A stretch of 64,000 nucleotides of DNA from the NCBI RefSeq assembly GCF_000296775.1, contig NZ_AJLE01000002.1, forward strand, positions 124,001-188,000, given 5' to 3'. Made by a program: the position numbers and the translations under genes. Source of the DNA: Sulfurovum sp. AR. GTDB taxonomy: Bacteria > Campylobacterota > Campylobacteria > Campylobacterales > Sulfurovaceae. Within the stretch, counting starts at the first letter, position 1. Every line of letters starts with the position of its first letter. The notes below the pieces were generated by a model. That model had not been told where the DNA came from. It was given only the letters and a program-made list of their open reading frames with translations, and did no database searches. Positions 53,260 through 57,927 of the stretch are shown piece after piece.

Positions 53260-53700
53260 ATGCATAAACAAAACTTTATCACTTTGACACTGATCATTTC
53301 AGGATTGGCCTTGAATCCAGTGATGGCAAATGCAGTATTCACTACGGTTACCTATAACCAAAATATAAACGATTCTGTTTCATCGGGTATTTCATCATTA
53401 TTATATAGTAGGGGATTGGAGAAAGAGGCAGCAGATGAAATCACTGAAAACCTTGTCAGTGAAGAAGTGGAAGATCTACTGAAAGGACTTATAGAAGATC
53501 TTGAGAGTGAAAAGATTGTAAGTAGAAAAGAAGTTTTGGAGTATTTGAGTACAAAGGCTTTACACAAAGAAAATGTTGATTTTCATTCCTATGATCATCT
53601 GGTAGGTATGGTTTCAAAGATCAAACAACGATCTTTAGAAAATAAAACATTAAAACAACTTCAAAAGATGGCGCAAAACAATAAATACATATTTGTGTAG
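53260..53700 (+). CDS. Hypothetical secreted helical protein
   Basis: About 146 residues from the ATG at 53260 (AAAGGATTTTTA upstream). A signal peptide (FITLTLIISGLALNPVMANA) is followed by an all-helical, charged part (EKEAADEITENLVSEEVEDLLKG). Not recognised. It stands before a long gene-free stretch. Confidence 0.6.
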   Translation: MHKQNFITLTLIISGLALNPVMANAVFTTVTYNQNINDSVSSGISSLLYSRGLEKEAADEITENLVSEEVEDLLKGLIEDLESEKIVSRKEVLEYLSTKALHKENVDFHSYDHLVGMVSKIKQRSLENKTLKQLQKMAQNNKYIFV

Positions 53701-54291
53701 AGATACACAAATACTATATGTTATGGAGTAATAATATACTTTGGTTAACATAATATAAATTCTATCAAAAAAGTAAATCTCTTCTCTCTCATGAATTAGA
53801 GCAAAGGTTAAATGGTTTTTGAAAAAGTCATTTTTATAAAAATCGGTAGATGTGTATCTATGTATAAAATTTCTTATATCAGAACTTTTATATTGTGTTG
53901 TATGAAAAATGAAAAAAATGGTTATACACAGATTTTAATGTATTCAAAATTTAACCGATCTTATAATATGTATCTGATTAGATTTTTTTAACCAAGAGAT
54001 ATAATATAGTTAGAAATTTAACACACCTCATTTTTCAATCAATCCAAACATAATACAAAATGAAATGATCAAAACCCCAAGATACTTTTTTGTGAATGAG
54101 GAATAATAAAATATTCACACAAATGTATTAAAAAGTTATCTTCTCAAGATGATCTAGGGTAATTCACAAGAGAATTCTAATATTTATTAGTATTAGTAAG
54201 ATGAAATACTCCTTCCCGTTTCCAAAAGAAAACATATATCTGTTTCATGTCATTCAAAGTACCGTATATAGGGGCGATGATGGATTATATA
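53701..54291. other. Gene-free AT-rich stretch
   Basis: About 590 very AT-rich bases between the secreted protein and the TetR operators. I see no credible frame, RNA fold or repeat in it. It could hold remnants of a lost gene or a long promoter region. Confidence 0.5.
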
Positions 54292-54438
54292 TGAACAAGT
54301 GTTCATTGTAAGAATCAGTTTAGGGTAAATAAAAGAACATTTGTTCATTTATAATTTATGTAATAAAATTAAATATGAACGTTTGTTCTTTTATGTTGAA
54401 TATCTCTACTTGACAAATGAACACTTGTTCACTATAAT
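54292..54438 (+). promoter_or_regulatory. Four phased TetR operators and the tetR promoter
   Basis: Four 14-base palindromes start at 54292 (TGAACAAGTGTTCA), 54334 (AGAACATTTGTTCA), 54376 (TGAACGTTTGTTCT) and 54418 (TGAACACTTGTTCA), each exactly 42 bases after the last, about four helical turns. The fourth fills the 17-base spacer between -35 TTGACA (54410-54415) and -10 TATAAT (54433-54438). The regulator would bind one face of the helix and shut its own promoter. Confidence 0.85.
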
Positions 54439-54456
54439 GTCACTAAAGGAGCCACA

Positions 54457-55110
54457 ATGAACGAGCAGAGCGTTAGTTCTTCCCCTACTAAAGGAAGTAA
54501 AACCAAAGATAAAATACTCAAAATATCCCTGAAACTCTTTTCTACTAAAGGATATAAGGCAACAACGGTTAGAGATATCGCTGGTGCTATGGATATGAAA
54601 CAAAGTGCACTTTATAACCACTTTAAGAACAAGGATGAGATCCTTGAAACACTGGTAAGTGAGCTTACCTCTTCTGCAATAGTGACTATATTTAGCGATA
54701 AAGAGGCCTCAGAGCTTCATAAACAAGGAAAGTCTTTGTTAATGTCTATTGCCACTACTTTTAAGCTTATAGGCTTTGACGGGCAAAATGAGGCACTTTT
54801 AAAGCTATTGATGCAGGAGATCTATAGAAATGAGCGTATCAGGGAGATCTATAACGAGTATTTCTACCAGGAGAACGTTAAAAAGCTCTCAAGCATCTTC
54901 TTTATGATGATGCAGGATGAGATGATCAAGTCCTCGGACCCTCTTTTACTGGCAAATGAGTTCATTTCTCCCCTATTTTTTTATCAGATGCAGGTTTCTT
55001 TGCTAAAATTAGATAAAAAATCGACCTCTTCAGTCGTCTCAATGTTCGAGAAACATGTAGATTTCTTCTGGGATAATATAAAACTGGAAAAACAAGAGAC
55101 CCTATTTTAG
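54457..55110 (+). CDS. TetR-family regulator
   Basis: A 217-residue protein. The DNA-binding domain spans about 18-65: KDKILKISLKLFSTKGYKAT, then TVRDIAGAMDMKQSALYNHFKNKDEIL. The C-terminal half is helical and would bind an unknown ligand. AAAGGAGCCACA precedes the ATG. The four operators just upstream show strong autoregulation. Methyltransferase and DUF2238 genes follow on the same strand with short gaps, which makes one operon likely. Confidence 0.9.
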   Translation: MNEQSVSSSPTKGSKTKDKILKISLKLFSTKGYKATTVRDIAGAMDMKQSALYNHFKNKDEILETLVSELTSSAIVTIFSDKEASELHKQGKSLLMSIATTFKLIGFDGQNEALLKLLMQEIYRNERIREIYNEYFYQENVKKLSSIFFMMMQDEMIKSSDPLLLANEFISPLFFYQMQVSLLKLDKKSTSSVVSMFEKHVDFFWDNIKLEKQETLF

Positions 55111-55139
55111 GGAAATACTAAATAATATTAAGGATTAGA

Positions 55140-55748
55140 ATGGAAACAAAAGTGGATCATTTCGCTGAAAAATCAAAAACGTGGGATATGAACAGCAAAC
55201 GCGTACAGAATGCACAAGGCATAGCCGAACTAATAGTAAATAATATTAAACTGGATAAATCTATGGAACTTATGGATTTTGGTGCAGGAACGGGGCTTTT
55301 AAGTTACTTTGTCGCCCCCTATGTAGAGAAAATCGTGGCTGTAGACAACTCCCCTTCTATGCTTCGAGAATTTCAAAGTAAATGCGGTCAATTCTCATGT
55401 AATACTGAAGTAATAGAGAAGGATCTGAGTACTGATACACTTGAACGAAAGTTTGATGGAATCATTTCATCCATGACGATCCACCATTTGGAAGATATTC
55501 CTGCCCTCTTCTCAAAATTCTATAAGATGCTGGATGAGCATGGCTTTATTGCTATTGCTGATCTGGATAGTGAAGATGGCACTTTCCATAGTGACAATGA
55601 AGGTGTCTTTCATTACGGTTTTGATCGACATTTGCTTGCAGAGTACGCTCAAAAAGCAGGATTCAAGGATGTGACCTTCAGTTTAGCCAATAAAATATCT
55701 AAACCACATGCCGAATTCACTGTTTTTTTAATGACAGCAAAGAAATAA
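55140..55748 (+). CDS. Class I SAM-dependent methyltransferase
   Basis: A 202-residue enzyme. The SAM site is MELMDFGAGTGLLSYFVAP near 44-60, the acidic residue is in IVAVDNSPSML, and the post-motif is DGIISSMTIHHLED. The substrate is unknown. It lies 29 bases after tetR and 16 bases before a membrane protein gene. The small size fits a small-molecule methyltransferase. Confidence 0.85.
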   Translation: METKVDHFAEKSKTWDMNSKRVQNAQGIAELIVNNIKLDKSMELMDFGAGTGLLSYFVAPYVEKIVAVDNSPSMLREFQSKCGQFSCNTEVIEKDLSTDTLERKFDGIISSMTIHHLEDIPALFSKFYKMLDEHGFIAIADLDSEDGTFHSDNEGVFHYGFDRHLLAEYAQKAGFKDVTFSLANKISKPHAEFTVFLMTAKK

Positions 55749-55764
55749 TATTAGAGAATATTAA

Positions 55765-56376
55765 ATGAAATATCTTTGGTTAGGTATCTTTATACCTGTT
55801 TTAATATGGTCTGCAGCTTTACCTAAAGATCCATTTACATGGTTTTTAGAAGTGTTACCGGTTTTCATAGGTTTGGTCATTTTACTTTTAACCTATAAAA
55901 AGTTTCCGTTAACTTCCCTACTCTATACACTTATATTAATTCATATGATAATTTTGATGGTGGGAGGACATTATACTTATGCTGAAGTCCCTCTGTTTGA
56001 CTGGATCAAAGAGGTTTTTGACCAAAATCGGAACAATTATGACAAGGTAGGTCATTTTGCACAGGGATTCATCCCTGCCATACTCGCCAGAGAGATACTG
56101 ATACGTAAACATATCGTACTAGGCAGTAAAATATGGCTAAATACCATCATTGTAAGCCTTGTTTTGGCATTTTCAGCCTTGTATGAACTTATAGAATGGT
56201 GGGTGGCTCTTGCTATTGGTGAAGATGCTGAAGCCTTCCTGGGAACACAGGGATATATGTGGGATACACAGTCAGATATGGGATATGCACTATTTGGAGC
56301 GATCATGGCGCTTATAATACTTTCTAGGGTCCATGACAAACAGTTAGACTTATTATCGCGGAGTCAAACTGCTTGA
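55765..56376 (+). CDS. DUF2238 (YjdF-like) membrane protein
   Basis: A 203-residue membrane protein with about six helices. YDKVGHFAQGFIPAILARE and LYELIEWWVALAIGEDAEAFLGTQGYMWDTQSDM are the DUF2238 landmarks, with conserved His, Glu and Asp residues inside the membrane region. The function is unknown. It completes the TetR-controlled unit. Confidence 0.85.
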   Translation: MKYLWLGIFIPVLIWSAALPKDPFTWFLEVLPVFIGLVILLLTYKKFPLTSLLYTLILIHMIILMVGGHYTYAEVPLFDWIKEVFDQNRNNYDKVGHFAQGFIPAILAREILIRKHIVLGSKIWLNTIIVSLVLAFSALYELIEWWVALAIGEDAEAFLGTQGYMWDTQSDMGYALFGAIMALIILSRVHDKQLDLLSRSQTA

Positions 56377-56391
56377 GCGTTAGGCGCAGTC

Positions 56392-56413
56392 CTGCCCCAC
56401 GGAACTGTGGCAG
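56392..56413. terminator. Hairpin between convergent genes
   Basis: CTGCCCCAC and GTGGCAG pair, with one bulged base, around GGAACT in the 39 bases between the convergent DUF2238 and Cache genes. The G+C of this spot is high for the window. Confidence 0.5.
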
Positions 56414-56415
56414 TG

Positions 56416-57927
56416 CTACTTCTTCTCATATGGGCGATAGGCTAGAACGACCCGCCATTCACGGTTGTGGAGTCTCACACTCTGCCAGATAGCATTTTTG
56501 ATGGCCTTTTTGTTGGACTCGGGTGAAAGATAGATATAGCTCCCTTCCCCTGCTGGATCAGAGACAATCTTCTTGCTGAGTTTTAGCAGGTTTCCGTAGC
56601 CTGCATAGATAGGATCGCTGAAAAGCATCCTACCGATCTCTCCCTTATCCTGATCGTAGAGTATCATACTGTCTGGCTGCATAATCCAGAGTTCATAATC
56701 ATCGGGGATCGTGGTTTTCTTAAGCAGAGAATCGACCAGCAGTTCAGGGCGGATCAAGAGGTTGATAGAGCCTGAGAATCTCTTCTTATTGTCGTAGATT
56801 GGACGGGATACGACCACTGCCGTAAAATGTTCGACGGCTGTAAATCCGCTGCTGAGCAGTGGTTCAGGTTTTTTCAGCATGGCCTTGATATGCTTCTGGG
56901 AACTTATGTCCGTATTCTCGAAGTTCTTGTATTCACGTGGCTCTACCAGTCGCATTATTCCCTTCGCATCGATAAAAGAGGCTTCGACAATATCGGAGCT
57001 CTCATCAAGAAGGGTGTTGAGAAGTCTTCTGATCTCACTTTCTTTTTTGACATCCACCCTACTTTTCTCGATCAATGTTGCCAGTGATTCGTCAATATGG
57101 TTCAAACGGTTTTGCAGATCGGGTACAAAGCGATCGAGCGAAAGTTTAAGTTGTGGTGGAGTCACTGCTTTTGCCCCCTCAATCTTGGCAAGGAACATCC
57201 ACCATTCCATATTTTGCAGTTTCTGGTAATATCCGTGACGGAGGTTGTCCAGCTCATACTGCACGGGTCCGCTTTCCGTTTTTATTGCTTCTGAAATGGC
57301 ATCATGCAGTGATTCACTCCCCTGTGTGAGAGCATTCATAAAGATAAAATCACTGTCGTTGTCAAGCATCATCATCCCCTCTGAGTTCAGGACAAACCAG
57401 GTGTAGTCATAGGGTAAATCAAATTCGCGGTTGAGTTTATCATGCAGCTCATCCAGGAAGATCGAGGCACCAAGTGCACCTGTCACTTTACCATCTGTCG
57501 CTATGGGAGCAGCCATCAGAGCTGATTTCTTCCCGGAAGAACGGCTGTAGATAGGATAACCCATCACTGTGTTGTCGGCAAAGAGCGACTTAAAATAACC
57601 CCGGTTGCTCAGATTTAGATTGGTGTAGTCAAGTGTTACAGTGTAGTAGTTGCCATCGGGCAGAACATAGAAATAGACCCCCGGCGTAACTTCTTTTAGC
57701 TGTTTCAGGTAGTCTTTGATCCCTTCCCAATCGCCGTTTTTAGCCTCAGGAGTAGAGGCGATCAGTTCAAGAGACGATAGTGTATTCATTAACACAGTAT
57801 CCAGATAGTTCGATGCCGCGTTGAGTGTGGTTTTTGGAACTGCTGTCTGCTGGATTGGAACAGCTTCTGCTGCCAAAGATGCGTTTGCCAAGATGCAAAT
57901 AAACAGTGTTGAAATGATCTTTTTCAT
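56416..57927 (-). CDS. Periplasmic Cache-domain sensor without output domain
   Basis: About 503 residues from the ATG at 57927 (GAAGGAGAAAAA upstream). It has a signal peptide (STLFICILANASLA) and two Cache-like sensor regions: one about 25-230 (GVYFYVLPDGNYYTVTLDYTN, then YFKSLFADNTVMGYPIYSRSSGKK) and a second about 260-500 (EASFIDAKGIMRLVEPREYKN, then AVVVSRPIYDNKKRFSGSINLL). No kinase, GGDEF or chemoreceptor part follows, so it must signal through another protein or act as a ligand-binding protein. Confidence 0.7.
   Translation of the reverse strand: MKKIISTLFICILANASLAAEAVPIQQTAVPKTTLNAASNYLDTVLMNTLSSLELIASTPEAKNGDWEGIKDYLKQLKEVTPGVYFYVLPDGNYYTVTLDYTNLNLSNRGYFKSLFADNTVMGYPIYSRSSGKKSALMAAPIATDGKVTGALGASIFLDELHDKLNREFDLPYDYTWFVLNSEGMMMLDNDSDFIFMNALTQGSESLHDAISEAIKTESGPVQYELDNLRHGYYQKLQNMEWWMFLAKIEGAKAVTPPQLKLSLDRFVPDLQNRLNHIDESLATLIEKSRVDVKKESEIRRLLNTLLDESSDIVEASFIDAKGIMRLVEPREYKNFENTDISSQKHIKAMLKKPEPLLSSGFTAVEHFTAVVVSRPIYDNKKRFSGSINLLIRPELLVDSLLKKTTIPDDYELWIMQPDSMILYDQDKGEIGRMLFSDPIYAGYGNLLKLSKKIVSDPAGEGSYIYLSPESNKKAIKNAIWQSVRLHNREWRVVLAYRPYEKK

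Follow-up and report, generated by a model that had tools for sequence, protein, structure and literature searches.

Upstream of a tetR gene in Sulfurovum sp. AR lie four short palindromes, and the question raised by this locus is why their starts follow one another at such regular distances. The palindromes are found in the window, by which the whole 64-kb stretch of DNA analysed is meant; the source genome (2.1 Mb, 99.7% complete) has its nearest named relatives in Sulfurovum. The original prediction, made for this DNA, was that four TetR operators exactly 42 bases apart, the last one placed inside a promoter spacer, are bound cooperatively along one DNA face and form a steep switch for a unit of TetR, methyltransferase and DUF2238 genes.

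Four palindromic sites and a promoter upstream of tetR

The features of the locus are the following (the palindromes have no assigned strand).

54292-54305, no strand: operator 1, TGAACAAGTGTTCA, a perfect 6+2+6 palindrome, kept in relatives
54334-54347, no strand: operator 2, AGAACATTTGTTCA, kept in relatives
54376-54389, no strand: operator 3, TGAACGTTTGTTCT, kept in relatives
54418-54431, no strand: operator 4, TGAACACTTGTTCA, within the -35/-10 spacer
54410-54415, plus strand: -35 element TTGACA from a promoter-match scan, flanking operator 4
54433-54438, plus strand: -10 element TATAAT from the same scan, flanking operator 4
54445-54451, plus strand: RBS-like AAAGGAG, conserved in the alignment of loci
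54457-55110, plus strand: TetR-family regulator of 217 aa (PF00440, E 8e-14), presumed binder of the operators
55140-55748, plus strand: class I SAM-dependent methyltransferase (PF13649 and related families), next after tetR
55765-56376, plus strand: DUF2238 membrane protein (PF09997, E 5e-60), last gene of the unit

The starts at 54292, 54334, 54376 and 54418 give three steps of 42, 42 and 42 bp, as had been predicted, and operators 1 to 4 differ from the 14-bp palindrome form TGAACANNTGTTCA by 0, 1, 2 and 0 mismatches. The core pattern GAACNNNNGTTC (GAACN4GTTC) has four matches in the 64-kb window, all of them in the array, as compared to 0.93 in shuffled sequences. The predicted position of the last operator was confirmed as well: the 17-bp promoter spacer (54416-54432) is filled by operator 4, and TTGACA-17-TATAAT, with a score of 12/12, is the top promoter-like match within 53650-56500. 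In a first set of 100 loci, mostly from Sulfurovaceae, both the -35 and the -10 element flank the last operator in 91, and across loci operator 4 is the one nearest to the consensus, with a mean of 0.19 mismatches versus 0.67-0.79 for operators 1-3. A minus-strand divergent promoter (CTTACA-17-TATAAT, 54312-54284, with operator 1 in its spacer) was considered and rejected as a general feature, being conserved in only 2 of 87 loci; such a promoter is possible in the Sulfurovum sp. AR genome itself. A search for structured RNA gave no Rfam match at E values up to 0.1.

The TetR protein encoded in the window possesses the TetR_N helix-turn-helix (PF00440, 51.6 bits against a cut-off of 24). Its AlphaFold2 model (mean pLDDT 86) displays an all-helical TetR-family fold including the C-terminal domain, and the top PDB matches obtained with Foldseek are TetR-family proteins with TM-scores of up to 0.74, so that an ordinary TetR fold is predicted, without hint of a special oligomer interface.

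Operator spacing in orthologous loci

For the analysis of related loci, tetR orthologues were fetched and about 240-260 bp upstream of each were scanned by motif alone, with no spacing imposed; the wider scan, covering Sulfurimonas and other families, employed the relaxed motif WKAACRNNYGTTMW with at most one mismatch. Operators were detected at 149 orthologous tetR loci, giving 424 operator-to-operator steps; four operators are present in 127 of the 149 loci and sometimes there are three. The steps fall into classes of 21-24 bp (22 steps), 31-34 bp (143), 41-45 bp (258) and 53 bp (1). Two-turn steps measure 21 (3), 22 (18) or 24 bp (1), three-turn steps 31 (14), 32 (97), 33 (31) or 34 bp (1), and four-turn steps 41 (1), 42 (171), 43 (84), 44 (1) or 45 bp (1). 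Steps of 25-30, 35-40 or 46-51 bp, which would be out of phase, do not occur among the 424, a set from which a fifth site at L252 (step 30) and a site overlapping the start codon at L110 (step 37) were left out by judgement as poor motif matches. The single step of 53 bp probably represents two steps minus a lost site, as sister loci have 31 + 22 bp at this place.

The class means are 21.95, 32.13 and 42.34 bp and are fitted by a line with a slope of 10.19 bp per turn and an intercept of 1.56 bp; as about 1.6 bp are left at zero turns, it is a constant phase between dimers rather than an exact multiple of 10.5 bp that seems to be kept. Across species, neighbouring sites are an integer number of turns apart in every case, all 424 of 424 steps lying within about 2 bp of the mean of some whole-turn class (2, 3, 4 and once 5 turns). 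When TetR proteins from the Sulfurovaceae side were grouped at 80% identity, the resulting 25 clusters gave R = 0.93 at 10.5 bp, a value not reached in any of 20,000 random sets. The search for randomly spaced operators in relatives returned only steps in phase, and the predicted placement of the operators on the same face is strongly supported.

The figure of exactly 42 bp holds in the window but not as a general rule, pitches of about 32 or 22 bp being used in other lineages. Four sites spaced by 42 or 43 bp are present at almost every locus on the Sulfurovaceae side, whereas Sulfurimonas and other families mostly have 32 bp and one group has 22 bp. Mixed pitch exists in some loci beyond the Sulfurovaceae side (for example 33-31-22) and on the Sulfurovaceae side too (43-33-43 or 22-33-42). 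At one locus (L168, genome G028), operators with the altered centres GAACTATTGTTC and GAACAAAAGTTC keep their phase, with steps of 33, 21 and 32 bp; here half-site preference and protein may have co-evolved.

Spacer length and shared ancestry

Common descent might account for the regular spacing without any selection on it, the four-operator array and its spacing simply having been inherited, and 42-42-42 is indeed common to close relatives. Among non-redundant loci, however, operators are 0.84 identical and the inner parts of the spacers, which are about 78% AT, only 0.35, with about 33% expected from composition, so that spacer sequence is near saturation. The DNA around the array is scrambled as well: in relatives whose TetR proteins are 98-99% identical to that of the window, the upstream intergenic DNA is only about 0.5-0.6 identical, yet 42-42-42 is intact. 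The ATG lies at a freely drifting distance of 19 to more than 70 bp from the last operator, without preference for a phase (R 0.08 over distinct values). With spacers almost random in sequence and no quantised distance between operator and ATG, it is the length of the spacers itself that appears to be selected. A quickly built maximum-likelihood tree for 100 TetR proteins, in which some forks are weakly supported, requires at least 24 changes of architecture, some of them representing loss of a detectable site, and at least 6 changes of modal pitch, all by whole turns. Many changes of pitch that are only ever whole-turn ones are not expected from inheritance alone, and we regard shared ancestry without selection on spacing as hardly credible. 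This implies that evolution retains the operator copies on the same side of the DNA helix. An origin of the array by tandem duplication of 42-bp units was also rejected, the three spacers of one locus being unrelated to each other (31% identity in their inner parts, which is chance for their composition).

Compensation between phase errors of neighbouring steps was looked for in the arrays and not seen. A constraint from neighbour to neighbour is therefore favoured over a constraint on the whole array, and global twist sensing, in which such errors should offset each other, is not favoured.

Distribution of the array and genes associated with it

In pattern searches at the genome level, pairs of sites were found in 90 of 175 Sulfurovaceae genomes, a reversed control pattern being almost without matches, and among the matches listed these pairs sit at the tetR promoter. 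The triple-site pattern was detected at no more than one locus per genome in 30 genomes of several families, and in Sulfurovaceae as well as in other families the palindromes and the tetR gene co-occur. In the 2.1-Mb genome of Sulfurovum sp. AR the sole exact GAACANNTGTTC beyond the array is located inside a coding sequence, at chance level, the product of which reads like RNase R; a wider regulon was rejected on the basis of this being the only other exact match. As there is one array per genome searched, located at the tetR promoter, the array is most simply explained as autoregulatory, and conservation supports the view that the protein is an autoregulator of the TetR type, one of whose operators lies within the promoter of its own gene. 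The predicted tetR promoter is conserved across several families of Campylobacterales, and in almost every locus an operator directly precedes a TATAAT. On the Sulfurovaceae side it is the last operator that does so and in most other families the penultimate one, which means that the promoter has shifted along the array by one operator.

The unit of TetR, methyltransferase and DUF2238 was recovered in part: in most Sulfurovum-type loci the methyltransferase gene follows tetR and in many the DUF2238 gene is linked, but the array tracks tetR alone. Arrays without methyltransferase and DUF2238 genes exist, for example at L104, L105, L107, L163, L165 and L168; the next gene at these loci is convergent and helicase-like. 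Since the array stays with tetR when they are missing, both genes are best seen as passengers of the Sulfurovum switch and not as the reason for it. In the L145 operon, genes for TetR, methyltransferase and DUF2238 are accompanied by a second, different methyltransferase gene, and two operators are left, 42 bp apart.

The array is missing from genomes G092 and G145, in both of which tetR is broken. In G092 (locus L135) the 5' half of tetR is interrupted by stop codons and, besides the loss of the array, two identical tandem copies of the methyltransferase gene are present. Some intact-looking tetR orthologues are also without an array (L228, L109) or have a single degenerate site (L100), suggesting that the array is dispensable in places. 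The sequence GGTTAACATAATATAAAT (53743-53760) belongs to a conserved block that Sulfurovum relatives share and that lies about 720 bp upstream of tetR; a similar sequence is found directly upstream of the array-less tetR copies L157 and L171, and one further copy with one mismatch is present in the genome of Sulfurovum sp. AR.

Possible mechanisms behind the constant phase

A constant face combined with a variable linker of whole turns suggests an interaction through the DNA, either by contacts made upon flexing of the linkers or by coherent bends. In our judgement the array probably serves an autoregulatory TetR repressor whose dimers share one DNA face and contact each other pairwise by linker flexing. 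One TetR dimer would occupy each 14-bp site, the dimers would be aligned along one face, and each would touch its neighbour through bending of the AT-rich linker. Such contact between neighbours would explain why linkers of two, three and four turns are interchangeable and half-turn ones are not. A filled promoter-overlapping site would exclude RNA polymerase, and the remaining sites would raise the occupancy of this site, resulting in tight autorepression that a proposed effector would relieve. In Sulfurovum, the co-oriented methyltransferase and DUF2238 genes would come under the same control. We infer cooperative binding and a steep switch, as in the original prediction, from this arrangement of sites. 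As two, three or four turns are freely chosen, the dimers could not all touch each other without bending of the DNA. A more far-reaching version, in which the four dimers join one higher-order complex and the two-, three- or four-turn linkers are folded out of it, only the phase between neighbours being selected and the pitch of a modular array evolving in one-turn jumps, is put forward tentatively.

Coherent bending or wrapping would lead to the same spacing with dimers that do not touch: slight bends at each site would add up in one plane and the curved promoter would hinder RNA polymerase. This accounts for linkers of two, three or four turns and for spacers of about 78% AT, and A-tract occupancy is indeed elevated near the middle of three-turn spacers. 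However, no clear phased A-tract pattern was detected in four-turn spacers, and a global curve might favour compensation of phase errors, none of which was seen, making this explanation rather unlikely. An even smaller probability is given to a third partner, be it RNA polymerase, some other DNA-binding protein or the surface of a membrane, that imposes the common face, in which case the upstream sites might even activate. In favour of such a partner, the phase is constant though linker length varies, and operator 3 would fall near -62, a class I activator position known from CRP-type activators. But the register of the promoter differs by one operator between lineages, so that no activator position is constant; the DUF2238 and methyltransferase genes are missing at some loci, and no conserved divergent promoter is found over operator 1. 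Pairwise contact between dimers by linker flexing thus remains the preferred reading.

Comparison with known systems

The closest documented precedent for helix-phased operators appears to be the NrdR boxes in ribonucleotide reductase promoters, where binding is best at integer turns in vitro and in vivo and the spacing is three turns, four being tolerated (PMC12051234, PMC4009431). In both systems palindromic repressor sites are whole turns apart, but NrdR is a Zn-ribbon/ATP-cone protein and its two boxes bind a tetramer, whereas here a TetR-type protein usually has four sites, with a pitch of two, three or four turns that may be mixed within one array and with its own promoter as sole target. 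Within the TetR family, the operator of EthR from Mycobacterium tuberculosis is single and compact, covering about 55 bp, with a divergent ethA gene, in contrast to the four separate in-register palindromes described here. EthR itself forms a cooperative octamer, that is four dimers, on its own promoter region (PMC5403819). HlyIIR binds as two dimers, and the same article refers to QacR as having two dimers per operator region (PMC1828608). These TetR-family proteins likewise place more than one dimer on an operator region, but it is two dimers on one short operator and not a row of distant in-phase palindromes.

RefZ, a TetR-family protein of Bacillus, binds nearly palindromic motifs (PMC6657595). 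Among NCBIfam models, RefZ (NF037937) matches the TetR of the window best, with 58.6 bits, which is below the cut-off of 180, and the TetR proteins of relatives are also far under this cut-off. RefZ motifs are scattered around oriC and are involved in septum placement, whereas the array studied here is present at one promoter. In view of the low score and the single-locus distribution of sites, a RefZ-like role in chromosome positioning was rejected. In the open-access literature, with most subscription journals outside its scope, no report was found of a four-palindrome TetR array with interchangeable two-, three- and four-turn pitch.

Significance

Repressor sites are usually shown to be helically phased by means of spacer changes made in the laboratory. 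The roughly 150 loci compared here amount to an experiment run by evolution, in which changes of one or two turns were tolerated and half-turn changes were unseen. A rule for DNA-mediated interaction between dimers thereby becomes directly testable, and phased arrays offer a simple predictor of operators and their regulators in little-studied Campylobacterales.
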